DNA from: Hyphomonadaceae bacterium
Lineage (GTDB): Bacteria > Pseudomonadota > Alphaproteobacteria > Caulobacterales > Aquidulcibacteraceae
Direction of reading: 5' to 3'
DNA: 64,000 nt
NCBI GenBank assembly: GCA_019753175.1
Contig: JAIELK010000005.1
Span: 1-64,000, forward strand
Below, piece after piece: positions 1 through 13,256 of this stretch. The notes under the pieces were generated by a model that was not told the DNA's origin, did not search any database, and saw only the letters and a program-made list of their open reading frames with translations. The position numbers and the translations under genes are program-made. The stretch's first letter is position 1; the number at the start of each line of letters is the position of its first letter.

Positions 1-92
1 TTGACCTCGGCCAACTTGTACCACAACGACGCATCGCCCCACAGCGCCGCGGCGATGCTGCTTAAGCTGTCGCCCGCCTGGACCACGTACAT
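1..92 (-). CDS. LysM-toxin module A, N-terminal LysM part (partial, cut by window edge)
   Basis: Read on the minus strand, this frame begins MYVVQAGDSLSSIAAALWGD and continues off the left edge. It is the fourth copy of the LysM block that opens the toxin genes ending at 661, 3299 and 5720. The start is taken as the ATG at 92, equivalent to the MYTVRAGD start of the other copies. The frame stays open upstream to about 178 and reads like an RHS/YD tail (ADFDLAYDSTNSYTQGSTRG), the same kind of tail that precedes the other modules. This copy is the most diverged of the four (VVQAGDS rather than TVRAGDT). LysM domains bind peptidoglycan. The toxin domain lies outside the window. Confidence 0.6.
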   Translation of the reverse strand, partial: MYVVQAGDSLSSIAAALWGDASLWYKLAEV

Positions 93-178
93 GCCGCGCG
101 TCGAGCCTTGCGTGTACGAGTTCGTGCTGTCGTAAGCCAGATCGAAATCGGCGAACGAGGTTTTCCCATTCTCCAGTG

Positions 179-664
179 CTAATGCACTATTCCCCGCTCG
201 CGCTGAAGGAGATGCTCGTAGCGGCCGAATTCTGGCCAAGCTTCATAGTTGGTGGCTACATCTATTTCGCGCGACCCAGTTTGCTCCCTCTTTGCCTCCG
301 CGTCCACGAGGCGCACTGATACCGAGCCTTCGCGGTTGAAGTAATAGAGCTCGGCTTTCGCGATCTTGTCGGTGCCGGGCTGGTATTCACGCCTCGTCAC
401 CGCGCTCAAGAAGAGGCGCCCATCCTCTACCCGTTGAAACGCGTAGGTCAAATAATCTCGAAGCTCGTCATCCAAAAAATTGACGCTTACAAACGCATTC
501 TCTCCAACAACTTCTAAGAAGGAGTTTGGTCGTGTTTCGGACCCGACCAACACCGTATACAGGGCTCCTTTTTTATGCCGCGCTTTTGCCTGCGCTTCCG
601 ACAGCAGTTCTATCGGCACCTTGTCGTGCCTAAACCACTTCTCGCAATAAAATAGCGACGTCAT
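179..664 (-). CDS. Candidate immunity protein for the toxin of module B
   Basis: A 161-aa soluble protein with no signal peptide or membrane segment. It starts inside the stop of the preceding toxin gene (ATGA, 4 bp overlap at 661-664), the usual layout for a toxin and its cognate immunity gene, so the role is assigned by position. The sequence starts MTSLFYCEKWFRHDKVP and carries a charged, beta-rich looking body; I do not recognise a named immunity family. Module A's RHS tail begins directly after its stop, so the gene is sandwiched between two toxin cassettes. An alternative is an unrelated small cargo gene, but the overlap makes that unlikely. Confidence 0.65.
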   Translation of the reverse strand: MTSLFYCEKWFRHDKVPIELLSEAQAKARHKKGALYTVLVGSETRPNSFLEVVGENAFVSVNFLDDELRDYLTYAFQRVEDGRLFLSAVTRREYQPGTDKIAKAELYYFNREGSVSVRLVDAEAKREQTGSREIDVATNYEAWPEFGRYEHLLQRERGIVH

Positions 665-2790
665 CTATTGCTCCGCCGATAGATGTTGCCTTCGACATCC
701 CTAATTATGACGCCATTCCCTGCCGCCGCGCTTAATACAACTGGAGGCACTGGTGCTGTCTGCACGGGCACTTCCAAGTACACCTGCCCCAAAAGCTGTC
801 GCCCGATCAGCCCAGGGTATCTATCTCGAGCGGTAGGTACGTTTGCGATTGTTCGGCCCACCGCATACTTTGTCGCCGCCTCAGTTATGTAACCAATGGC
901 AGTTTCTGGAGCGATGTTCCAAAGTTGCGTGAGCTTTCTCGACACGATCTCCCCCGCCTCGGGGTTGTATGAATCTAGGATGCGATAACCTCCAGAGGGA
1001 TCGTCGATATACACTTGATTATAGGGGTAGCGAACACCCTGCTCCCGATCGAATCGTACCCCATCAAGAACGCGCTGTAACCAACCTGGCCTGCCGCTCT
1101 CGCCGCCTCTGCTGACTCGGAAGAGTGCAAGCTCGCTGTTGATCTCATTTGAATTACGTCCCTGGGCCCGCAGGTTGCCGACGAGGTCAAGTTCATCTTG
1201 GTCTTGGACCACAACGCCGAAACCCAAAGTGTCGTCGCCGTCTGCTCCCATCGGGACAACGACGTTCGCCACGAGCGGATGCCCGAGCTTATCCGCGATC
1301 CCCTGAGGGTCCTGGACAACGAGTAGTCCGTCTCCACGATCAATAGCGCCGCCGATGACGCGAAATTCCTTTATCCAATCGCCCGGATTGACCGGCTCTC
1401 CGGTCCATGGATTGACCGTCTGAGCGATCGACCACTGTCCAGGCGCCTCACTCTTCAACCTCGTGAGGATGAGATGATCATCCTCGAACTCGGGCACGCC
1501 GATGCGCTCCACACCTCCGTCTGCATCAGTTGGGATCGCCCAAGCTAGCAAGGCACCACCCGCGCGCCTTCCCAAAGTCGCTAGGAGCGAGCGAAGCTTT
1601 GCAAGCTCAGCCGCGCTAGTTCCGGCCTCGCCTTCGCCAAACAATCGAGCAAGCTCGGCCCTAGATTCCGGGGAAAGCTGCGGCAGAAGTTCTTTCGCTT
1701 GCCCTCGCTTCTGAGCCGGTCCGCCATTGCCCTCGGCCACGACCGCTCTGCCACGTCCCGCAATTCCCCCAGCGATCGCCTCCCCAATGGTTTGGCCGAT
1801 CACATTCGGCAGCGCCGCGAGCACGTTGTCGCCGAAATCGCTGCCTTCGATCAGCGAGCGCGTCGCGGCGTCTGCTATAAGGCTGGCGCCGCTTCGCACG
1901 ATGTTGAGCGGTCCGGCCGGCGCACGTGCGGAGGCGTACGACCCCACGGCGGCAGCTGCGACCCCAGCCCAGCTGAAGTTTCTTTGCAGCCCGGTCGCTA
2001 CCCCAATGCCTTGCGTTATCGCGTTCGCCACGCCTTGGCGCAGCGCATTCGACATCGCGCTCGATCCGCCTACGCCAAGCTGACTGCCCGAACCGCCAAT
2101 CCCGCCGGCGATCGCCGCCAGTGCGACTGCGTTCCAGGAGAACTTATCTTGGATGCCGGTTGCAACGCCGATGCCTTGCGACACGATGGAGCCGAGTGCA
2201 GCTGCCGTCGCGGCCCCGGCAACGGCGCCCGCGGTGATACTCCCGGTTGCGACGACTGCGAGACCACTGGCCGCCACATTGCCCGCTGCTAACGCGCCGA
2301 CCTGAGCGCCGGCGGCTGCGCCAGCGCTGGCGGAACCGCCGAAGCCCGCCGCGAATCCTTGCCCGAACGTTCCTCCGTTTAACATCGAGGAAAAGCCGCC
2401 GGCGATCCCGCCGGACATGACGACCACGACGGCGATCGCGACGACCGCAATCAGCACAGCCCCCATGCCGCCGCATTGCTGCTTGTGCGGTTTGGGCGCG
2501 GTGGGGCTGGTGTTGCCCAGCACCTCCAGCGGATCGTAGGGCTTGAAGGTGGTGGCGTTGTTCTCGCTGCGCACCACGCCAACCGGCACGATCAGCGGCT
2601 GGCCCTCGATCAGCGCGCTCTCGCCCGTCAGCCCGTTGACCTCGGCCAACTTGTACCACAACGACGCATCGCCCCACAGCGCCGCGGCGATGCTGCTTAA
2701 GGTGTCGCCCGCACGCACCGTGTACATTCGCGCGATCAGGGAGGCCGTCAGACTCGCGGCGCGCAGCTCTACAGCGCGCTCCAATGGCAT
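661..2790 (-). CDS. LysM-containing polymorphic toxin, module B (EVPVQ-type C-terminal domain)
   Basis: A 709-aa protein. Residues 22-72 form a LysM domain (MYTVRAGDTLSSIAA start), followed by a Pro/Lys/Cys linker (HKQQCGGMG), a hydrophobic segment near residues 110-130, and Gly/Ala-rich repeats containing two copies of the pattern GIGVATG-x-Q-x-x-F-S-W. A pre-toxin block (LGFGVVVQDQDELDLVGNL) is shared with module D. The last ~150 residues are variable: FPYNQ-like YIDDPSGGYRILDSYNP, then EIVSRK, then YLEVPVQ and IRDVEGN. The D...E-x-x-x-K arrangement is what a PD-(D/E)XK-like nuclease could show, and similar tips occur in contact-dependent toxins, but the fold is inference. ATG 2727 at the LysM is an alternative start. 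The stop overlaps the immunity gene by ATGA. Confidence 0.7.
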   Translation of the reverse strand: MPLERAVELRAASLTASLIARMYTVRAGDTLSSIAAALWGDASLWYKLAEVNGLTGESALIEGQPLIVPVGVVRSENNATTFKPYDPLEVLGNTSPTAPKPHKQQCGGMGAVLIAVVAIAVVVVMSGGIAGGFSSMLNGGTFGQGFAAGFGGSASAGAAAGAQVGALAAGNVAASGLAVVATGSITAGAVAGAATAAALGSIVSQGIGVATGIQDKFSWNAVALAAIAGGIGGSGSQLGVGGSSAMSNALRQGVANAITQGIGVATGLQRNFSWAGVAAAAVGSYASARAPAGPLNIVRSGASLIADAATRSLIEGSDFGDNVLAALPNVIGQTIGEAIAGGIAGRGRAVVAEGNGGPAQKRGQAKELLPQLSPESRAELARLFGEGEAGTSAAELAKLRSLLATLGRRAGGALLAWAIPTDADGGVERIGVPEFEDDHLILTRLKSEAPGQWSIAQTVNPWTGEPVNPGDWIKEFRVIGGAIDRGDGLLVVQDPQGIADKLGHPLVANVVVPMGADGDDTLGFGVVVQDQDELDLVGNLRAQGRNSNEINSELALFRVSRGGESGRPGWLQRVLDGVRFDREQGVRYPYNQVYIDDPSGGYRILDSYNPEAGEIVSRKLTQLWNIAPETAIGYITEAATKYAVGRTIANVPTARDRYPGLIGRQLLGQVYLEVPVQTAPVPPVVLSAAAGNGVIIRDVEGNIYRRSNR
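2461..2727 (-). repeat. 267-bp LysM direct repeat, copy in module B
   Basis: This block encodes the LysM domain and the following linker to CGGMG. It is nearly identical base for base to 5015-5281 and 7433-7699, with only a few substitutions by eye, and a partial diverged copy sits at 1-92. Such identity outside the variable tips is expected where homologous recombination exchanges or adds toxin cassettes. Confidence 0.9.
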
Positions 2791-2851: not shown

Positions 2852-3286
2852 TTAAGCTGCTCTCAGCTCTTGGACGAGGAAGGCGACCGCACGATCCAAG
2901 GGCATGTCCTTCTCGATCCGATCGCTGGCCTCTTGGTCGGGCTCCATGCCGCGCCCGCGCGGGCTAGATTTCCAGCGTTCAATGCTAAAGCGTCCGTCTC
3001 GTTTGAAGACCTGCCAGTTTCTACACTTTCGGTACAGGTCTTCCCAACTACTGGCGTCAAGAATGGAAAGGTATTCCTTGTCACCTTGATCGTCTTGCGG
3101 GACCTCGGTGTGGACGACTTTCATGTTCTCGCTCGAAAATATGTCTTTCAACTTCGACGCCAGGTCCGGATCGTTCGCGTCCAACACCCGAAAGGGCTTG
3201 ACCTCAACTCTCGCGCTGCCCTCCACTTTCAGTACATATGGCGCCAGTACGGTGGTTCCGACCTGATAGATTGGCCAATATGACAT
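2852..3286 (-). CDS. Candidate immunity protein for the toxin of module C
   Basis: A 144-aa soluble protein starting MSYWPIYQVGTTVLAPYVL, with no signal peptide. It lies 12 bp downstream of the module C toxin stop on the same strand, the position expected for its immunity partner. The C-terminal third is charged and helical looking (DQEASDRIEKDMPLDRAV). I do not recognise the family. Its last residues, MPLDRAV...ELRAA, weakly echo the MPLERAVELRAA start of the next toxin gene downstream; this may be chance or the trace of an old duplication. Confidence 0.6.
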   Translation of the reverse strand: MSYWPIYQVGTTVLAPYVLKVEGSARVEVKPFRVLDANDPDLASKLKDIFSSENMKVVHTEVPQDDQGDKEYLSILDASSWEDLYRKCRNWQVFKRDGRFSIERWKSSPRGRGMEPDQEASDRIEKDMPLDRAVAFLVQELRAA

Positions 3287-3298
3287 GTCGTCGTGTCC

Positions 3299-5281
3299 TT
3301 AGAACCGCCTGATGATTACCGTCACGCCCCGGTTGACGCCCTGCTGGTAGACCGCTTGCAACGCTTGTCGCTGACCAACGGTCATCGCCCCGCGCGGGAC
3401 CACAACCAACATCTCACGAGCGGTGAAATCAACTCCTGCCTGAATGGTTCTTCTAGCATACGTCTCGACCGTGTAGTTGGCGACCGAATTCAGCTTCCTA
3501 ATTAGCGTGCTTGCAACGGCCGAAGGATTACGGATGTATCCTTCAGCGGCAAGGTCAATCGAGACGACGCTGGTCGCTCGCCCGCGCCACACTCTGTCAA
3601 ATACCGGGAAGTCGGGATGCAGGCCGCGGCGGCCTCCGGAGCCTAGCGCGAGTCTCTCTAGCTCCCGACCACGATCGCCCCAACCGAGCCTCCAGGCGGA
3701 TGATCTGCCGAAGTTCAGAATGCCGGACTCGGCGCCGGCGCGAAGGCCTCCGACGATGCCGCCCGCCAGGATGTCGACTATCCAGCCGGCATCTTCAGCG
3801 TATCCCTTGTTAAACGGATCGAAGGCAAAGCGAAGGCGCTCGCTCTCCTCGGGATTCAGCCGTGCGAAGTCGGCAAATTGGCCGGTTATGTCTTCATAGT
3901 CGGAATAGTTAGGCGCCTCCTGCGGAGCAAAAAGCCGTTCAGCGGCTTCCCAATTGCCCTCCACAGGAATTAGGCGCGCGCTATCCGGCATTCCCTCCGC
4001 AAAGGTTGCGTCGCCAATGCCGGTTTGCAGCTCAGTGAGCCGCTGGACCGTGTCCAGCCACGATGCCTCATCACCATACGTTCCCGTCGTCGTTGCGGTT
4101 GGCGGCGCGATTACGTCTTGAATGGCATCGCCTAGCCCCGAGAGGGAAAGGTTCCGCCCCGCCATTCCTTGCTGACCAAACTGTCCGTCCAAGCCGACGA
4201 CATCGCCGATGGCGCCGCCGAGGCCCGCGAGCGAGAGGCGACGGCCTTCGCCGGTCGGCCCGTTGATCCCGTCGTACCCAAACTCCCCATCGAAGCCGAG
4301 GACGTCGCCAATCGCACTGAGCACGCCGCCACGACGTTCGCCACCTCCCGTCGTATTTCCATTCCCGGCTACACGCCCCGCGATAGCCTCCCCAATGGTT
4401 TGTCCGATCACATCGGGCAGCGCGGCGAGCACGTTGTCGCCGAAGTTGGAGCCGTCGATCAGCGAGCGGGTCGCGGCGTTGGCGATCGCCGAGGCGGTGT
4501 TGACCGCCGTGCGGCCCACGATCGCGCCGGTCCCCGCTGGCAGGCGCGCGCCAACCCACTTGCCCACGCCCGCGCCCACGCCCGCCGCTGCAACGCCAGC
4601 CCAGGAGAACTTGTCCTGCAGTCCTGTGGCGACGCCGATGCCTTGGGTGATGGCGCTGGCGAGCGCGGCGTTGACGACCGTCGAGCCGGTCAAGTGCGCA
4701 ACGCCGCTGCCGCCCACGCCGCCGCCGATCGCGGCAAGCGCCACCGCGTTCCATGAAAACTTGTCTTGGATGCCGGTGGCGACGCCCACGCCCTGCGATA
4801 CGATAGAACCGGCCGCTGCGGCCGTGATCCCACCCGCTACAGCGCCAGCAGCGGCCGCTCCGGCCTGCACTGCAAGCACTTGCGCCGCCGTCGTCGTCGC
4901 TGAAGCCGACAATGTCGTCATCGCCGCGCGCGAGAACATGTTGGTGAAGAAATTGGTCAACGGGACCTTCAGCACCACCACCACAGCAATCGCGATCACC
5001 GCCAACAGCACCTGCCCCATGCCGCCGCATTGCTGCTTGTGCGGTTTGGGCGCGGTGGGGCTGGTGTTGCCCAGCACCTCCAGCGGATCGTAGGGCTTGA
5101 AGGTGGTGGCGTTGTTCTCGCTGCGCACCACGCCAACCGGCACGATCAGCGGCTGGCCCTCGATCAGCGCGCTCTCGCCGGTGAGCCCGTTGACCTCGGC
5201 CAACTTGTACCACAACGACGCATCGCCCCACAGCGCCGCGGCGATGCTGCTTAAGCTGTCGCCCGCACGCACCGTGTACAT
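3299..5281 (-). CDS. LysM-containing polymorphic toxin, module C (CdiA-CT-like nuclease tip)
   Basis: A 660-aa protein starting directly at the LysM domain (residues 1-51). A linker, one hydrophobic segment (about 90-110), Gly/Ala-rich repeats and two tandem copies of a motif with the pattern AIGDV-x-G-x-DG-x-F-G follow. The C-terminal ~100 residues, FPVFDRVWRGRATSVVSIDL then NPSAVASTLIRKLN and a closing GVTVIIRRF strand, resemble C-terminal toxin domains seen in CdiA and other contact-dependent toxins (pattern FD-x(n)-ATS-x-K/D). The assignment is from memory of the family and needs a profile search. Upstream of the ATG the frame continues as an RHS tail, LAYDQITSYEQGSRGG, but is closed by a TAA about 50 bp upstream, so the RHS part is a relic. 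Confidence 0.7.
   Translation of the reverse strand: MYTVRAGDSLSSIAAALWGDASLWYKLAEVNGLTGESALIEGQPLIVPVGVVRSENNATTFKPYDPLEVLGNTSPTAPKPHKQQCGGMGQVLLAVIAIAVVVVLKVPLTNFFTNMFSRAAMTTLSASATTTAAQVLAVQAGAAAAGAVAGGITAAAAGSIVSQGVGVATGIQDKFSWNAVALAAIGGGVGGSGVAHLTGSTVVNAALASAITQGIGVATGLQDKFSWAGVAAAGVGAGVGKWVGARLPAGTGAIVGRTAVNTASAIANAATRSLIDGSNFGDNVLAALPDVIGQTIGEAIAGRVAGNGNTTGGGERRGGVLSAIGDVLGFDGEFGYDGINGPTGEGRRLSLAGLGGAIGDVVGLDGQFGQQGMAGRNLSLSGLGDAIQDVIAPPTATTTGTYGDEASWLDTVQRLTELQTGIGDATFAEGMPDSARLIPVEGNWEAAERLFAPQEAPNYSDYEDITGQFADFARLNPEESERLRFAFDPFNKGYAEDAGWIVDILAGGIVGGLRAGAESGILNFGRSSAWRLGWGDRGRELERLALGSGGRRGLHPDFPVFDRVWRGRATSVVSIDLAAEGYIRNPSAVASTLIRKLNSVANYTVETYARRTIQAGVDFTAREMLVVVPRGAMTVGQRQALQAVYQQGVNRGVTVIIRRF
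5015..5281 (-). repeat. 267-bp LysM direct repeat, copy in module C
   Basis: Second near-identical copy of the LysM/linker block. Similarity to the module D copy extends a further ~48 bp upstream through the RHS tail (5282-5328 versus 7700-7746), so modules C and D share a longer duplicated segment than B. Confidence 0.9.
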
Positions 5282-5363: not shown

Positions 5364-5723
5364 TTAACTCGGCTGCCGCCGGCCCGCCTCGCGCTCAATT
5401 CCTTCGAGTATGTTCATGGCTGAGTACCTATGCGTGGTGTCGATCGCAGGGTCAGCGAGCGCGGCCAGCATTAGCGCTTTGACATGAGCGGTGACAGCTT
5501 CCCTACCACCCTCCTCCCAGATTCGTTCCCGAAGAAGCGCCTCGTTCACAATCTCCTCTGGCGTGCGATTGCGCTCACCGTAGAATATGATGTCGCTCAG
5601 ATCGGAGTGCGGTGCGAAGAGCCTCAAATCAGACATCATTGAGCTAACTTGCTGCTCGGAGAGATCCCCGCACTCAATCTCGGTTAGGAAGTTGGAGATT
5701 GCCTCGACGAATTGGCTGCTCAT
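5364..5723 (-). CDS. Colicin/pyocin-type (Im9-like) immunity protein
   Basis: A 119-aa acidic, helical protein. Residues 39-61 (HSDLSDIIFYGERNRTPEEIV) follow the pattern of the E-colicin immunity proteins: HPSGSDLIYYP and then S/T-P-x-x-IV. SDIIFY at 43-48 sits where Im9 has the two tyrosines that contact the DNase. Colicin immunity proteins are usually about 85 residues, so this one has an extra C-terminal helical stretch. Its ATG overlaps the toxin stop (ATGA at 5720-5723), and the toxin carries the matching HNH DNase. It should bind and block that nuclease in the producing cell. Confidence 0.85.
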   Translation of the reverse strand: MSSQFVEAISNFLTEIECGDLSEQQVSSMMSDLRLFAPHSDLSDIIFYGERNRTPEEIVNEALLRERIWEEGGREAVTAHVKALMLAALADPAIDTTHRYSAMNILEGIEREAGRRQPS

Positions 5724-7852
5724 CGCCTATTCTCTCCATAGTGGATTTCGTTGTGTCTACGTGGACTCACCACCCGCATATTGTTCATATCATAGAGCGC
5801 CCCACCAAACCTCACCTCGTGAGGGTGATGGATCTCGAAAACCTGTCTGTCGCCGTATTGATCCACCTCCCTCGGGAACGGAGCTTTGCCTTGGCGCATT
5901 AGGGCGCGGTTGCTTTCAGTGAATTGATCCGCGAGTTCAGGTATATCCGCAACCGTACGCCAGAACGCACCTCGGAAGTCATGAATCGACTCGAACCGCC
6001 GTCCGGCCAAGCGATCGGCGACCTGACCCGGAATCGCGCCCTCCCCGCCGAAGAGCCACGGTCCGTCGATCACAGGTAGCGGGTCCCCGCTCACATACGC
6101 GACGCCCGGCCAGCTGCGAATCTCATCCGTCGTTGGGGCGTTTGTCGGGGTTCCGCTCCTTCCGCGTAGGCGGTCTAGTGCACTGTTGATCTCCGTCGCA
6201 CTTGCGCCCTGCAATTGCATATCGGCGAGGAGACTTGCCTCTTCTCGACTGTGAACAACGACCCCAAAGCCAAGCTGGAGATCGTCGCTCGCCATCGCCC
6301 CGACCATGTTTCCAATCTGACGCCCGGCGCTGTCGGGGTGCATCAGCGACGTGTTCGGGATCATGAGCGGAGCGCCATGGTCGGCCACTGCGGCGTAGCT
6401 CAGTAGCAACCCCGCACCAGCGATCGCGGTCGCTGGCGCCGCGACCTCAGCGCCTCCAGCAAGCGCTCCTCGTTGCGCCGTCCCACGCAGCAGCTCTATG
6501 GCCGCCGGAGTCAGAACGAACCCGGGCGCGACCCCTAACGGCGACGCTCCATCGCCCTGGTTCAGCGTCAATGAGTACCCCGACTCCAACGCTCCGCTCT
6601 CCAGCAACCGTTGCAACGCCGTTTGCGGCACGCCGCTTTCGGCAGGCGCGGAGAATGGGTTGGACCATTCGCTGGCGCTCGGGCTCGTAAGATCGATGCT
6701 CCAGCCGTCGAGCGGGTACGCGGTGCGCGGCGCGCGCGCCAGATTGATGCGCATGGTCGAGAGCTGCGGCAGCTCGGCAAGCGCCGTGGGTTCGTACTGC
6801 GCCAAATCCGGCAGCGCTTTGATCGGCTCAAAGGCGACAGGTTCCGGCGAAAGCGCATCTGCTATTTGCTCCCCGATGGTTTTCCCGAAATACTGCCCGA
6901 GCGCGCCCGGCAGCGCGGCCAGCATGGCGTCGCCGAAATCTTCGCCCTCGATCAGCGAGCGCATGCTCGCTTCGATCAGCACGCGTGCGCCGACAGCGCG
7001 AGCCCCGCCGCGGCCTTGCAGCACGCCACCGGTCAGCCCCGCCGCTGCCACCCCGGCCCAGGAGAAGTCCTTCTGCAGGCCGGTGGCCGTGCCGATCGCT
7101 TGCGCCGCCGCGTCCTCCACCGCGCTGGTGACAAACCACTTCGCAAATCCGTTGCCGACGCCGGTCGCGCGCGCGACGGTCTCGCCCAGCGGGCTCGCGA
7201 CGATCCCGCTGCTGATCGCCGCCATCGCCACCGCGTTCCAGGAGAACTTGTCCTGGATGCCGGTGGCGACGCCCACCGCTTGGCTGGTCGCACTGGCGGC
7301 GGCGCCGATCGCGGCGCTCCGCCCGATATTGACCGCGGCGGTCATCGCTTTGCTTAAGGCTTTGCCAGCGCCGGGAATGAACCGATCCAGCACGACTTGC
7401 ACAACCATCGCGATCACGACGAGCAGCACCTGCCCCATGCCGCCGCATTGCTGCTTGTGCGGTTTGGGCGCGGTGGGGCTGGTGTTGCCCAGCACCTCCA
7501 GCGGATCGTAGGGCTTGAAGGTGGTGGCGTTGTTCTCGCTGCGCACCACGCCAACCGGCACGATCAGCGGCTGGCCCTCGATCAGCGCGCTCTCACCCGT
7601 CAGCCCGTTGACCTCGGCCAACTTGTACCACAACGACGCATCGCCCCACAGCGCCGCGGCGATGCCTGGCAAGGTGTCGCCCGCACGCACCGTGTACATG
7701 CCCCCGCGCGAGCCCTGCTCGTAGGACGTGATCTGATCGTAGGCGAGATCGTAATCGGCAAACGACCCGGTCGACCCGCCAGGGGTCTGACGCAGATGCC
7801 GCGTGCGCTCGTAAGTGACGTCGTAATTGCCGTTGTTGCCGACATAGCCCAT
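5720..7852 (-). CDS. LysM/RHS-tail toxin with colicin-E-type HNH DNase tip, module D
   Basis: A 710-aa protein. Residues 1-51 are an RHS/YD tail (GNYDVTYERTRHL, then FADYDLAYDQITSYEQG), 52-102 a LysM domain, then linker, hydrophobic segment, Gly/Ala-rich repeats and the LGFGVVV pre-toxin block shared with module B. The last ~100 residues match the DNase of colicins E2/E7/E8/E9 and S-type pyocins: IPGQVADRL, FRGAFWRTVA, and a closing HNH motif with H675/H676, N691, H700 and H704. Those spacings (15, 9, 4) equal H103-N118-H127-H131 of colicin E9. It should cleave DNA with a metal ion. The frame continues upstream of the ATG as more RHS sequence to a TAA at 7913, so the true N-terminus was lost at the IS110 junction. 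Confidence 0.87.
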   Translation of the reverse strand: MGYVGNNGNYDVTYERTRHLRQTPGGSTGSFADYDLAYDQITSYEQGSRGGMYTVRAGDTLPGIAAALWGDASLWYKLAEVNGLTGESALIEGQPLIVPVGVVRSENNATTFKPYDPLEVLGNTSPTAPKPHKQQCGGMGQVLLVVIAMVVQVVLDRFIPGAGKALSKAMTAAVNIGRSAAIGAAASATSQAVGVATGIQDKFSWNAVAMAAISSGIVASPLGETVARATGVGNGFAKWFVTSAVEDAAAQAIGTATGLQKDFSWAGVAAAGLTGGVLQGRGGARAVGARVLIEASMRSLIEGEDFGDAMLAALPGALGQYFGKTIGEQIADALSPEPVAFEPIKALPDLAQYEPTALAELPQLSTMRINLARAPRTAYPLDGWSIDLTSPSASEWSNPFSAPAESGVPQTALQRLLESGALESGYSLTLNQGDGASPLGVAPGFVLTPAAIELLRGTAQRGALAGGAEVAAPATAIAGAGLLLSYAAVADHGAPLMIPNTSLMHPDSAGRQIGNMVGAMASDDLQLGFGVVVHSREEASLLADMQLQGASATEINSALDRLRGRSGTPTNAPTTDEIRSWPGVAYVSGDPLPVIDGPWLFGGEGAIPGQVADRLAGRRFESIHDFRGAFWRTVADIPELADQFTESNRALMRQGKAPFPREVDQYGDRQVFEIHHPHEVRFGGALYDMNNMRVVSPRRHNEIHYGENRR
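7433..7699 (-). repeat. 267-bp LysM direct repeat, copy in module D
   Basis: Third near-identical copy of the LysM/linker block, differing from the others by a handful of bases (for example PGIAAAL instead of SSIAAAL). It is the only copy still attached in frame to a long stretch of RHS tail, so it may be the ancestral arrangement. Confidence 0.9.
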
Positions 7853-7907: not shown

Positions 7908-8471
7908 TCACCTTAACACGTCGCTCTTCACGTGCACGCTCTTGAACCAGCCCGTCCGCATCATCTGCGCCAGGCCGAGTGCATCGTGTCGATCGGTCTT
8001 GTTGCGCTGGGCGTAGTCGGCACCCCATGTGACTCGCGCGCGCGAATAGGGCGCAATAAGTTGGTCGCAACCACGACACGGCTGGCGATCTGAATATATT
8101 CGCGTCACCTGCTCTGGCCGAATCCCGAGCCTTTGCAGTTCCCGGACACCCAGGAGTTCCGAGTGGCGTCCCGTCCCTTCGCTGGCTCGTTCTATGTAAT
8201 GCCGTGTCCCGTTCGAGTCTTCGTATTCGAATACCGCGACGTTTCTGCCGTCCCCAATGCTCTGCGCTTGTCGATAGCGGAGCGCTCTTTCACTGAGGTC
8301 CGTACCGCCCATAGCAACACGTCCCCGCCTGGTCTCCATTTCGAGCTGGTAGGCCCTCGCTGGATCATCACCCATAACTTCCATGCGGTAAGAGCGCTCG
8401 CGCGCCTCCAAGCCGAACGCGCACGCCTCCTCCTCGATGCGCAAAGTCCCAGCTCGGATGCGCTCGCCCAA
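7908..8471 (-). CDS. Nucleic-acid deaminase toxin tip fused to IS110 transposase scrap
   Basis: Residues ~54-153 of this 187-aa frame look like a zinc-dependent deaminase of polymorphic toxins: GGTDLSERALRYRQ, then H103-S-E105 (zinc ligand and catalytic Glu), IYSDRQPC132-RG-C135 (PCxxC zinc ligands) and a closing VTWGADY. The known families act on DNA, RNA or free nucleotides; the substrate cannot be read here. From residue 154 the frame runs into AQRNKTDRHDALGLAQMMRTG, the conserved NKTDR-D motif of IS110 transposases. Residues 1-29 are probably antisense to a truncated sigma-factor gene, so the real toxin part likely begins near 8384. No immunity gene follows before module D; it was probably lost in the IS event. 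It may be non-functional. Confidence 0.65.
   Translation of the reverse strand: MGERIRAGTLRIEEEACAFGLEARERSYRMEVMGDDPARAYQLEMETRRGRVAMGGTDLSERALRYRQAQSIGDGRNVAVFEYEDSNGTRHYIERASEGTGRHSELLGVRELQRLGIRPEQVTRIYSDRQPCRGCDQLIAPYSRARVTWGADYAQRNKTDRHDALGLAQMMRTGWFKSVHVKSDVLR
7911..8006 (-). mobile_element. IS110-family transposase remnant
   Basis: The minus-strand frame reads RNKTDRHDALGLAQMMRTGW then FKSVHVKS. This is the region following the DEDD catalytic core of IS110/IS902-type transposases (pattern NKTDRNDA-x-GIAQMMR-x-G-x-F-x-PVHVK). Only about 30 codons remain, with neither the N-terminal DEDD domain nor the C-terminal Ser domain. It marks a deletion that joined a deaminase tip to RHS sequence of module D. 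Confidence 0.75.
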
Positions 8472-8762
8472 CTTCGTGAACTGTCAGCCTTGCTGGCGCT
8501 TGGCTTCATAGCGGAAGCCCATCATGGAGAAAGCGCGCAAACACCCCTTCAAACCACAGCCTGGCGCGACCTTGAACTTAGTCTTGAACGCGAGATAGAG
8601 CGATTGCCCGAGGCTGAACGAACAATCATCTACAATCACTACCAACTGGGTGTCGACTTCACCCAGATTGCCAAGCTCATAGGATGCAGCAAGGGCCGCG
8701 TCTCACAACTTCACAAGAGCGCGCTCGCCCGGCTTCGTCAGCACTTGAGCAAGTTCGAATAG
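8385..8762 (+). pseudogene. 5'-truncated FliA-like sigma factor (regions 3-4)
   Basis: The C-terminal half is sigma region 4: LPEAERTIIYNHYQLGVDFT, then a helix-turn-helix (IAKLIGCSKGRVSQLHKSALARLR). Upstream, SDALAQLRELSALLALGFIAE fits the region 3 part of FliA/WhiG-type sigma factors. Regions 1-2, needed for core binding and -10 recognition, are missing. The open frame extends back to an ATG at 8133, but 8133-8384 is antisense to the deaminase frame and encodes nothing sigma-like. So the gene appears to have been cut when the toxin region was joined. The TPR gene starts 8 bp after its stop, so the three plus-strand genes were probably one operon. Confidence 0.65.
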
Positions 8763-8770
8763 GACACATT

Positions 8771-9331
8771 ATGCCTAAACTTTGCGACGATACCCGCCTT
8801 CAAGGCCTGATCGACGCCCACACAAAGGGCGATTCCGAGCGTGTGGCCAAAACGCAAGCGCTCGCCGCGGAATTTCCCGACGACGCGCGGCTTCAGTTCA
8901 TGTTGGGCTCTGCGCTGATCGGCGAGGGGCGCCTAATAGAAGGCCATGTAAACCTTTCTCGGGCCGTTGAGCTTGCGCCCGATTTTGCCATTGCCCGTTT
9001 CCAACTCGGCTTGTTTCAATTGACCTCAGGCGAAGCCGACAACGCACTGGAGACCTGGGCGCGTCTCGACCGCTTGCCTGACGGTCACTATCTACGCCAT
9101 TTCGTGGATGGCTTGCGCTCTTTGATCCGCGATGAATTCCGAGCGTGCACTACGCACCTAGAAGCCGGAATCCGCGCAAACACCGAGAACGCTCCATTAA
9201 ACAGCGATATGCAGCTTGTCATTGCCCGGTGCCGAGAGGCTGAGGCGCAGTCGGCTCAGTCATCAGAAGAACCCACAACGGAAACCAGCATGCTCTTGCA
9301 GCGCTTCCGCCCAGATGAACGGCCCAATTGA
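8771..9331 (+). CDS. Tetratricopeptide-repeat protein
   Basis: A 186-aa soluble protein from ATG 8771, 8 bp after the sigma-factor stop. Residues ~20-110 carry TPR-like helical pairs (LQFMLGSALIGEGRLIEGH, then FAIARFQLGLFQLTSGEADN). There is no signal peptide or membrane segment. TPR domains mediate protein contacts, and this one could serve as a chaperone or adaptor for the neighbouring LysM toxins; that role is inference from location only. It is followed after 3 bp by the 118-aa unknown gene. Confidence 0.75.
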   Translation: MPKLCDDTRLQGLIDAHTKGDSERVAKTQALAAEFPDDARLQFMLGSALIGEGRLIEGHVNLSRAVELAPDFAIARFQLGLFQLTSGEADNALETWARLDRLPDGHYLRHFVDGLRSLIRDEFRACTTHLEAGIRANTENAPLNSDMQLVIARCREAEAQSAQSSEEPTTETSMLLQRFRPDERPN

Positions 9332-9334
9332 GCC

Positions 9335-9691
9335 ATGACGCGCATCAGCAACGTTGATCAGATCCTGCTCTTGATCCAGGCCCATCTCGATCGCCTGGAG
9401 AAGAGTAAGAAGAGTTCACGCACCGATCGATCGCGTCGCGCGGCCTTTGCGGCTCGCCCGCCGCTTGAGCGGGTTCGCGAACTCGCCGCTGCCGACAGCG
9501 CCTCCCAAAGTGAGCTTGCCCGCGCGCTGATTGCAGCCCTCCTCGCACAGGAATTCGGCAACGAACTCGCAAACGACATACGGTTTCAAGATCTCATCGA
9601 CCGGGTCAATGATGCGCTCACCGCCGATGAACATGCTTCCGCGCTGCTCGCAAGCGCCATTGGGCAATTGGCGGAGCCGGCGGAACGTTAG
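9335..9691 (+). CDS. Conserved-looking hypothetical protein next to the toxin locus
   Basis: A 118-aa protein starting MTRISNVDQILLLIQAHLDR, 3 bp after the TPR gene, so probably translated from the same message. It is helical and alanine-rich with a basic patch at residues 22-36 (KSKKSSRTDRSRR). I do not recognise the family. Its tight spacing with a TPR gene and a sigma-factor remnant suggests a small module serving the toxin locus. Confidence 0.65.
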   Translation: MTRISNVDQILLLIQAHLDRLEKSKKSSRTDRSRRAAFAARPPLERVRELAAADSASQSELARALIAALLAQEFGNELANDIRFQDLIDRVNDALTADEHASALLASAIGQLAEPAER

Positions 9692-12041: not shown

Positions 12042-12563
12042 ATGATCGATAGCGGTCACAGACGGGGCCCGAGGCCGGTCCAAATCCGACCTCCACGGCA
12101 CTGCACCCACATCTATTTCCTCGACAGCTGCGCCTTTTCCGACTCAGCTGGGATTACGGCCCAAGACGTCGAAACCTTACTAGGCTTAGAGGTGATGTGC
12201 CAGCTGCGCATTTCACGCGTGGCTATGAATGAAATCCAACACCCAAGCACTTCAGCGCATCTGCGGAAGTTGGCGGCGAACTTCATATACTCGACGTTCC
12301 ATTCGGTTCCGCCGGAACTAAGGCACAGAGTCACCCGGCACTTCGTCGGCAACTCGCGCAACAAGCACCAGGCGGACGCTGAAATCTACCTCGATGCGCA
12401 CTGTTTTGGCGCCAACTTTATCGTCACGAACGACCACCGTTTCCGGGACCGAGCGCAACGTCTCGAAGGGAATGTAGTGCGATTTCTCACGCCACGCGCT
12501 TTCGTTGACGCTATCACAAGTAATAGCTGGCCGGAGCCGGTCACGCCGCCCAGGGATCGATGA
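12042..12563 (+). CDS. PIN-domain-like protein
   Basis: A 173-aa protein. The pattern IYFLDSCAFSD near the N-terminus, a middle MNEIQHP acid, and AEIYLDAHCFGANFIVTNDH near the C-terminus match the layout of PIN-fold ribonucleases, in which the acids hold Mg2+ for RNA cleavage. No antitoxin-like small gene precedes it. Its 3' end overlaps the convergent VapC-type gene by 23 bp. Whether it is a free-standing RNase or the toxin of an unseen pair is unclear. Confidence 0.6.
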   Translation: MIDSGHRRGPRPVQIRPPRHCTHIYFLDSCAFSDSAGITAQDVETLLGLEVMCQLRISRVAMNEIQHPSTSAHLRKLAANFIYSTFHSVPPELRHRVTRHFVGNSRNKHQADAEIYLDAHCFGANFIVTNDHRFRDRAQRLEGNVVRFLTPRAFVDAITSNSWPEPVTPPRDR

Positions 12564-12954
12564 GAACGAGCCGCGTCGTAGCAAAGTCTGAGGCGTTGCG
12601 CGTGGCCAGTTCCGCGCGTGCGACGCGTGCGATCGCCGCGATCTGCGCGTCCGCGAGCGCCATGGGCCGCCCCGCGCTTTCCGCCTCGGCGAGAATGTCG
12701 CCGCAGCAATCAGCGGCCTGTAAATCATAGGCGAGGATAGCGTCCGCGAAGCGATCGACGAGAGCGTCGAGCGCCTGCGTCAACGAAAGCTTGCGTTTGC
12801 CCGCAGCGAGCCGCGCAACGCCGTAGCGCAGCTCCCCGATCGCCACCGTCGGCAGGAGCAGGAGTTTGGCGTTCCGCCTCAGCCAGTCGACCACCGCCGG
12901 CGCCGGAGCGGGCCGCATGAGTTCGGATAAGACATTGGTGTCGACGACAATCAC
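12541..12954 (-). CDS. VapC/FitB-type PIN toxin
   Basis: A 137-aa PIN-domain ribonuclease. The N-terminal acid block reads VVDTNVLSELMRP, with a mid Glu in AIGELRYGVARL, then ALADAQIAAIARV and a closing ATRNASDFATT, all standard for VapC. The start is GTG at 12954, overlapping the antitoxin stop as GTGA. This is the usual order, antitoxin then toxin. It should cut tRNA or rRNA when free of the antitoxin. Confidence 0.9.
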   Translation of the reverse strand: MIVVDTNVLSELMRPAPAPAVVDWLRRNAKLLLLPTVAIGELRYGVARLAAGKRKLSLTQALDALVDRFADAILAYDLQAADCCGDILAEAESAGRPMALADAQIAAIARVARAELATRNASDFATTRLVLIDPWAA

Positions 12955-13202
12955 AAACGCACCGGCGCGTGCGCGCGCCGCCGTGCGTCAAGGAAATCGG
13001 CGACATCCTCGCCCGGCTCGACCATAGCCAAGAACCAGTCGGGAAATTCGGTCTTAGCCGGGGCGCGTTCGCGCGCGGCGGCGTCGAGAACGGCGCGCAC
13101 TTCCGCCTCAAGGCTGCGCCCCTTGCGGCGCGCGCGCGCCGCAAGCCGCGCCTTGGTGGCGGGCGAGAGATTGCGCACAGTGAGCGAAACGCCTTTACCC
13201 AC
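12951..13202 (-). CDS. FitA/VapB-type ribbon-helix-helix antitoxin
   Basis: About 83 aa from the GTG at 13202. The N-terminus SLTVRNLSPATKARLAARAR followed by GRSLEAEVRAVL is a classic Arc/FitA ribbon-helix-helix DNA-binding domain; the tail (FPDWFLAMVEPGEDVADF) would wrap the toxin. The frame is open further upstream to an ATG at 13253, but that stretch contains the two palindromic operators, so the shorter start is preferred. It forms an operon with the downstream PIN toxin (GTGA overlap) and should repress its own promoter. Confidence 0.85.
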   Translation of the reverse strand: MGKGVSLTVRNLSPATKARLAARARRKGRSLEAEVRAVLDAAARERAPAKTEFPDWFLAMVEPGEDVADFLDARRRAHAPVRL

Positions 13203-13209
13203 ACCATAA

Positions 13210-13256
13210 TGATTGCATGCAATCACCCAGTTGTCAAGCATGATTGCATGCAATCA
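13210..13256. promoter_or_regulatory. Twin palindromic operators of the FitAB/VapBC-type pair
   Basis: Two perfect copies of the 16-bp palindrome TGATTGCATGCAATCA lie at 13210-13225 and 13241-13256, centres 31 bp apart, which is close to three helical turns. They sit immediately upstream of the antitoxin start. Ribbon-helix-helix antitoxins bind paired palindromes cooperatively, so this is the expected autoregulatory site. Confidence 0.8.

Follow-up and report, generated by a model that had tools for sequence, protein, structure and literature searches.

An orphan RHS C-terminal cassette with a colicin-type HNH DNase tip, whose full-length relatives co-occur with a motorless flagellar-type gene cluster

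Earlier work has described RHS cassettes that stand as orphans, colicin DNases in proteins other than bacteriocins, and type III systems that lack the parts for motility. Orphan rhs-CT/immunity cassettes of RHS and CDI systems consist of a displaced C-terminal toxin with its immunity gene on a conserved recombination carrier, and they occur as arrays of different tips. The DNases of colicins E2, E7 and E9 and pyocins S2 and AP41 belong to one HNH fold family with characteristic catalytic residues, and come with overlapping genes for Im-type immunity proteins. VPA1263, an effector of the T6SS, acts between bacteria with a colicin-type DNase whose carrier is not a bacteriocin (PMC9602870). Among flagellum-derived type III apparatuses, the NF-T3SS of Myxococcales lacks elements essential for motility (PMC3459982; myxobacterial predation review PMC10433427). 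An earlier hint of a toxin-type domain consistently placed beside flagellar genes came from a 2012 survey, which found an RNase domain beside Firmicutes flagellar operons and asked whether it was delivered by them (PMC3482391). Our literature search found no work linking RHS to a flagellar-type or motorless cluster; most subscription journals were outside the search, so this is not proof of novelty.

The locus described here resembles each of these systems in part. In contrast to known orphan rhs-CT cassettes, its carrier contains a LysM domain, no full RHS gene is left in the genome, and the intact relatives are linked to a flagellar-type cluster and not to a T6SS. Compared with the colicin and pyocin DNases, the tip sits on an RHS-LysM carrier in which no receptor-binding or translocation domains were found, and the immunity protein is longer and more divergent. 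VPA1263 combines a MIX carrier with a T6SS, whereas the carrier here is RHS-LysM and a T6SS is missing. Unlike the Myxococcales NF-T3SS, the cluster of the relatives is found in linkage with RHS toxins and still has its rod, P/L rings and hook; the Firmicutes case concerned a single RNase, with neither RHS nor a motorless cluster described.

The window, i.e., the whole stretch of DNA that was analysed, is the first 64 kb of contig C12 from a genome of 3.1 Mb (G000). At least four orphan LysM-tip-immunity cassettes were found on the same strand at its start. The features are as follows, with the basis of each in brackets.

1–167, minus strand: start of orphan cassette 4, interrupted by the contig end (sequence comparison)
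179–664, minus strand: candidate immunity gene of cassette 3 (position only)
661–2790, minus strand: orphan cassette 3, LysM carrier and a tip without assigned family (Pfam, sequence comparison)
2852–3286, minus strand: candidate immunity gene of cassette 2 (position only)
3299–5281, minus strand: orphan cassette 2, LysM carrier and a CDI EC869-like nuclease tip (Pfam, sequence comparison)
5364–5723, minus strand: probable Im9-type immunity protein of 119 aa with a C-terminal extension of about 40 aa (ATGA overlap with the toxin stop)
5720–7852, minus strand: orphan RHS C-terminal cassette 1, 710 aa (ORF listing, Pfam, homology)
5738–6037, minus strand: Col-Pyo_DNase domain, aa 606–705 of cassette 1 (PF21431)
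7556–7696, minus strand: LysM domain, aa 53–99 of cassette 1 (PF01476, 27.1 bits, cut-off 20.9, E 4e-6)
7908–8400, minus strand: remnant of an XOO_2897-type deaminase tip, PF14440 (Pfam, NCBIfam)
8403–8762, plus strand: sigma factor of the flagellar-type cluster, 5'-truncated, C-terminal part (region 4) left (39% to the G031 sigma factor, E 4e-17)
8771–9331, plus strand: TPR protein of the cluster, TPR175 orthologue (60% identity to G031, 1e-60)
9335–9691, plus strand: orf118, a helical protein of 118 aa belonging to the cluster (orthology to the G031 cluster)

Cassette 1 is built, in order, of an RHS junction segment, LysM, a hydrophobic Gly-rich region and the DNase tip. The assignment of the tip as a colicin/pyocin-type HNH DNase is firmly supported. 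The Pfam profile PF21431 (Col-Pyo_DNase) matched the 710-aa ORF with 122.1 bits against a cut-off of 27 (E 2e-35), and phmmer comparison of the tip with PDB gave pyocin S2 (4e-29), colicin E2 (5e-29) and colicin E9 (1.7e-25). The initial annotation, made from the DNA letters and an ORF list, had named a colicin-E-type DNase with the HH, N, H, H residues of colicin E9 at spacings of 15, 9 and 4, and it was right on both points, since the residues counted on the sequence are H675-H676, N691, H700 and H704. The DNA-binding Arg aligned with Arg5 of E9 is retained as well in the alignment to pyocin S2 and colicin E2, and the tip is predicted to act as a nuclease. PF21431 was present in three of 385 alphaproteobacterial genomes, so a tip of this type is rare in the class. 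In Pfam and NCBIfam searches of the whole ORF only LysM and the DNase were recovered, the latter also as a match to NF047924 (VPA1263-type), and no receptor-binding or translocation domains. The general remark in the initial annotation that colicin DNases normally ride on receptor-binding bacteriocins has to be qualified, as non-bacteriocin cases such as VPA1263 were known before (PMC9602870).

The gene downstream shares four nucleotides (ATGA) with the toxin ORF and probably encodes an Im9-type immunity protein, although it stays below the family cut-off. The motifs SDIIFY and PxxIV, reported earlier for this gene, were found in the 119-aa protein, and its length against about 86 aa for Im9 agrees with the earlier estimate of roughly 30 additional residues. 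PF01320 (Colicin_Pyocin) gave 14.3 bits, under the cut-off of 21.2, with E 0.044 over 24,736 models, which corresponds to p about 2e-6 for a single family specified beforehand. The best PDB matches were Im proteins as well, at E values of 0.13–1, which are not significant. We consider the Im9-like assignment supported but weak, and the immunity function as predicted. No close relatives of the protein were found among plasmids or viral contigs. The AlphaFold single-sequence model was of low confidence (pLDDT 59) and that of orf118 reached pLDDT 68.6, neither with a significant fold match, so no fold was assigned to the two proteins.

The carrier of cassette 1 was traced to the C-terminus of very long RHS proteins. 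Residues 3–350, numbered in the ATWYRFSGRQMG frame, match residues 2719–3106 of a 3,465-aa RHS protein in the sister genome G031, and the carrier aligns likewise in three full-length RHS proteins other than this one; in the 3,541-aa RHS protein of the same genome it is at the corresponding place. The toxin ORF begins within the RHS frame (TWYRFSGRQMGYVGNNG...), and its first ATG (MGYVGNN) falls within this reading frame too; translation could alternatively begin at MYTV, near position 7699. Since the carrier is the C-terminus of a full-length RHS protein and the ORF opens inside the RHS frame, the 710-aa gene is an orphan RHS C-terminal cassette. The proposal of a LysM/RHS carrier stood as to the LysM domain and the homology to the RHS C-terminus, but the ORF itself contains no RHS repeats. 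The further argument that a peptidoglycan-binding carrier dictates a new route of delivery did not hold in that form, as LysM is a single segment near the C-terminus of an RHS protein of roughly 3,500 aa and the gene in the window is an orphan cassette.

Comparison of the cassettes with each other revealed nearly identical DNA around LysM. Cassette 1 shares 94.4% identity over 360 bp with cassette 2, 94.9% over 293 bp with cassette 3, 97.8% over 89 bp with another carrier piece that opens contig C30 at base 1, and 82.7% with the cut cassette 4. The tips differ between cassettes despite this tract. Such a pattern is as expected of a recombination tract and would fit the exchange of tips, and we infer from the alignments that tips may be swapped by recombination through LysM. 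Cassettes 1 and 3 have in addition a second pre-tip segment in common (aa ~491–570 of cassette 1). The RHS N-terminus was not found in G000, only RHS fragments, and RHS-repeat fragments are scattered over the genome (start of C6, end of C12, C23 at 2321, C13 at 36585). Several of these are at the ends of contigs, pointing either to RHS repeats that have collapsed or to additional RHS genes in decay.

Just upstream of cassette 1 lies the deaminase remnant at 7908–8400, which is cut short and at its end runs on in frame into a piece of IS110 transposase. It is followed on the opposite strand by the sigma factor, TPR and orf118 genes, which are orthologues of the tail of a flagellar-type cluster in G031. 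The orf118 product has a conserved MTRI.NVDQ start and was met in this analysis only beside the motorless cluster. G000 has the ordinary FlhA only, with no second one. Orphan cassettes and three cluster genes are what is left there, and the locus in the window is most plausibly the remnant of one in which RHS and a flagellar-type cluster stood together. The cassettes are considered relics because both the export machine and the RHS N-terminus have been lost from this genome, and delivery from G000 is probably no longer possible.

In G031 two RHS genes (start MVSIFTGLGAGFERGS) are situated on both flanks of a complete flagellar-type cluster. The cluster runs from FliQ, FliR, FlhB, FlhA, a TPR protein, FlgF, FlgG, FlgA, FlgH and FlgI through FlgB, FlgC, FliE, FliF, a short ORF, FliH, FliI and a FliK-like protein to FlgD, FlgE, two SpoA-domain C-ring proteins, FliO, FliP, the sigma factor and a TPR protein. 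Gene names in the clusters were given by tblastn to the G031 proteins, with Pfam/NCBIfam for a sample and the record annotation for plasmids; the FliK-like protein was called by eye and position, FliO by position. The cluster thus retains the export gate, the FliI ATPase, rod, P/L rings and hook. FliG, flagellin and MotB were found in none of the five genomes in which the cluster-type FlhA is the sole FlhA (Altererythrobacter sp. CC-YST694, Sphingomonadales 63-6, an uncultured Sphingomonadaceae, a Comamonadaceae MAG and Sphingorhabdus sp. Alg239-R122), and the remaining cluster genomes have a single FliG each, outside the cluster. The FliG slot in the cluster is occupied by an ORF of about 88–104 aa, which has no family match in G031. 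Several of the assemblies are MAGs or are broken inside repeats, and the absence of FliG from MAGs could reflect gaps, yet two of the five seem to have been assembled from strains and not to be MAGs. The FliF of the cluster matches only residues 28–222 of the 555-residue FliF model, its C-terminal half missing. In those five genomes the cluster cannot form a normal rotary flagellum. An ordinary second flagellum, comparable to fla1/fla2/fla3 of Rhodobacterales (PMC11974857), was rejected on two grounds: genomes with no other such cluster have no FliG, flagellin or MotB, and FliF is short.

By the curated profile cut-offs, export proteins of the SctV/SctU/SctR type, as in the non-flagellar T3SS injectisome, were not recognized in the cluster. 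Its FlhA scored 550.6 against a SctV cut-off of 692 and 720 against a flagellar FlhA cut-off of 772, below both, while its FliP was over the FliP and under the SctR cut-off. The cluster-type FlhA sequences form one clade with 100/100 support, separate from ordinary alphaproteobacterial and sphingomonad FlhA.

The RHS N-terminus and this cluster were repeatedly found together. Within the family, four of 60 genomes have the RHS N-terminus and five have a second, divergent FlhA, all four among them (hypergeometric p 1e-5, with relatedness ignored). In the fifth (G059) the gene neighbouring that FlhA adjoins an RHS C-terminus, and a different contig carries orphan cassettes. A scan of GTDB species genomes with the RHS N-terminus gave 19 loci in 15 genomes, three of which were family genomes already counted, and 13 of the 15 have a cluster-type FlhA. 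When the sets are combined, the cluster FlhA is present in 14 of 16 genomes with full-length RHS, as raw counts with phylogeny ignored; the two exceptions are MAGs where the RHS match is near a contig end. RHS adjoins the cluster in G031, G028, G059, G009, Woodsholea maritima and S. mali, stands at both ends of it in the uncultured Sphingomonadaceae and is inserted within it in Sphingomonas sp. QA11. In some Sphingomonadales, namely Altererythrobacter sp. CC-YST694 and Sphingorhabdus, the 10 kb around the cluster do not contain the RHS gene.

The reverse test was made on an independent set of 72,556 plasmids. The RHS N-terminus occurred on six only, and the three best matches to the cluster FlhA (48–51% identity, the next 41% or less) were all among these six. 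Full-length RHS and the cluster thus co-occur on three betaproteobacterial plasmids. The conjugative plasmid pMSMB2035 of Burkholderia ubonensis carries the whole block from FliQ to RHS and a downstream ORF as one run, and these parts are likewise present on the Variovorax PDNC026 plasmid. The orthologous TPR gene was found on two plasmids only, each time next to RHS. On the plasmid NZ_AP018442.1 of Undibacterium sp. YM2 a gene of about 38.8 kb (129783–168629), annotated as 'tandem-95 repeat protein' and near 12,950 aa in length, has the RHS N-terminal segment at its start and is located near the fliQ gene of the motorless cluster.

Delivery of the RHS toxins by T6SS was rejected, as VipB was found in none of the 60 family genomes and none of 12 further genomes. 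The earlier hunch that delivery is unusual may be right for another reason, namely that the intact relatives lie beside a motorless export cluster where a T6SS is missing. We consider it probable that the gene pair in the window is an orphan RHS toxin-immunity cassette of a type of RHS protein that leaves the cell through the flagellum-derived type III apparatus encoded beside it in relatives. The cassette, composed of the RHS C-terminal segment with LysM and hydrophobic region, the HNH DNase and the Im9-like immunity gene, would serve as a spare tip. Homologous recombination via the near-identical LysM tract would attach the DNase and the immunity gene to the end of an RHS gene of full length, and the assembled protein would consist of an N-terminal MV[SAN]IFTGxG segment, the RHS shell, LysM and the DNase. 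By its N-terminal segment, this protein would be exported into neighbouring cells through the adjacent apparatus, equipped with export gate, ATPase, rod, P/L rings and hook and devoid of rotor, stator and filament. In the target cell the tip would cut DNA, and the immunity protein would protect kin. The mechanism cannot run in G000 as it stands, since this genome has neither a second FlhA nor the RHS N-terminus. Against this reading, a type III channel would have to handle a very large substrate in an RHS protein of roughly 3,500 aa. The two genomes with the RHS N-terminus but no cluster FlhA, the RHS genes away from the cluster in some Sphingomonadales and the low profile score of the immunity protein count against it as well.

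The size of the substrate also counts in favour of an alternative that we regard as unlikely, in which the RHS genes and the motorless cluster are merely neighbours, perhaps under a common regulator such as the cluster sigma factor, while RHS leaves the cell by another route and the cluster secretes something else or is adhesive. Proteins of such length are unusual substrates of type III export, the cluster does carry its own sigma factor, and the RHS gene lies away from the cluster in some genomes. Mere neighbourhood does not sit well with RHS genes that adjoin or are embedded in the cluster in several genera and on unrelated betaproteobacterial plasmids, with the insertion inside the cluster in QA11, or with the presence of the whole block on a conjugative plasmid. 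In addition, the candidate other route by T6SS is lacking, and the RHS start, MV[SAN]IFTGxGxGxERGS, has no evident signal peptide in its sequence.

Far less probable is the reading of the initial annotation, a stand-alone bacteriocin-like toxin that is expressed and released alone with LysM as its delivery module. The ORF is intact with possible internal starts, and the immunity gene overlaps it, as such a toxin would allow. The ORF nevertheless corresponds in frame to the C-terminal end of RHS proteins. Its upstream boundary falls at a point inside RHS that it shares with orphans in G059, and the neighbouring cassettes begin at differing points of the same segment, one of them (cassette 2) after an in-frame TAA just upstream, within the RHS junction segment; the Pfam search gave no receptor-binding or translocation domain. 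The cassette may, on the other hand, be kept for protection only, the immunity gene being expressed from the orphan array against related strains with the same tip. This is a tentative possibility, rated above both alternatives just named and compatible with export of the full-length relatives by the flagellum-derived apparatus. It would account for toxin and immunity ORFs that are still open in G000, where the RHS N-terminus and the export machine are gone, but an intact toxin ORF is not required if immunity alone is retained.

On a wider scale, we lean slightly towards a mobile system, so far unrecognised, by which alpha- and betaproteobacteria would deliver toxins: a flagellum without rotor, stator and filament, but with rod, rings and hook, would be dedicated to exporting polymorphic RHS-LysM toxins of about 3,000 to 13,000 aa into competitors, with orphan tips as spare ammunition. 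The question bears on how RHS toxins exit bacteria without a T6SS, and as the motorless export machine and the RHS gene form a conserved, sometimes plasmid-borne block, it is directly testable in cultured strains. If true, this would be another independent case of a flagellum turned into a secretion device, here with hook and outer rings kept. PADLOC gave no relevant match. A VapBC-like toxin-antitoxin pair, with a PIN-domain-like start (MIVVDTNVLSEL) and judged by eye only, is located further along at 12541–13253 on the minus strand.
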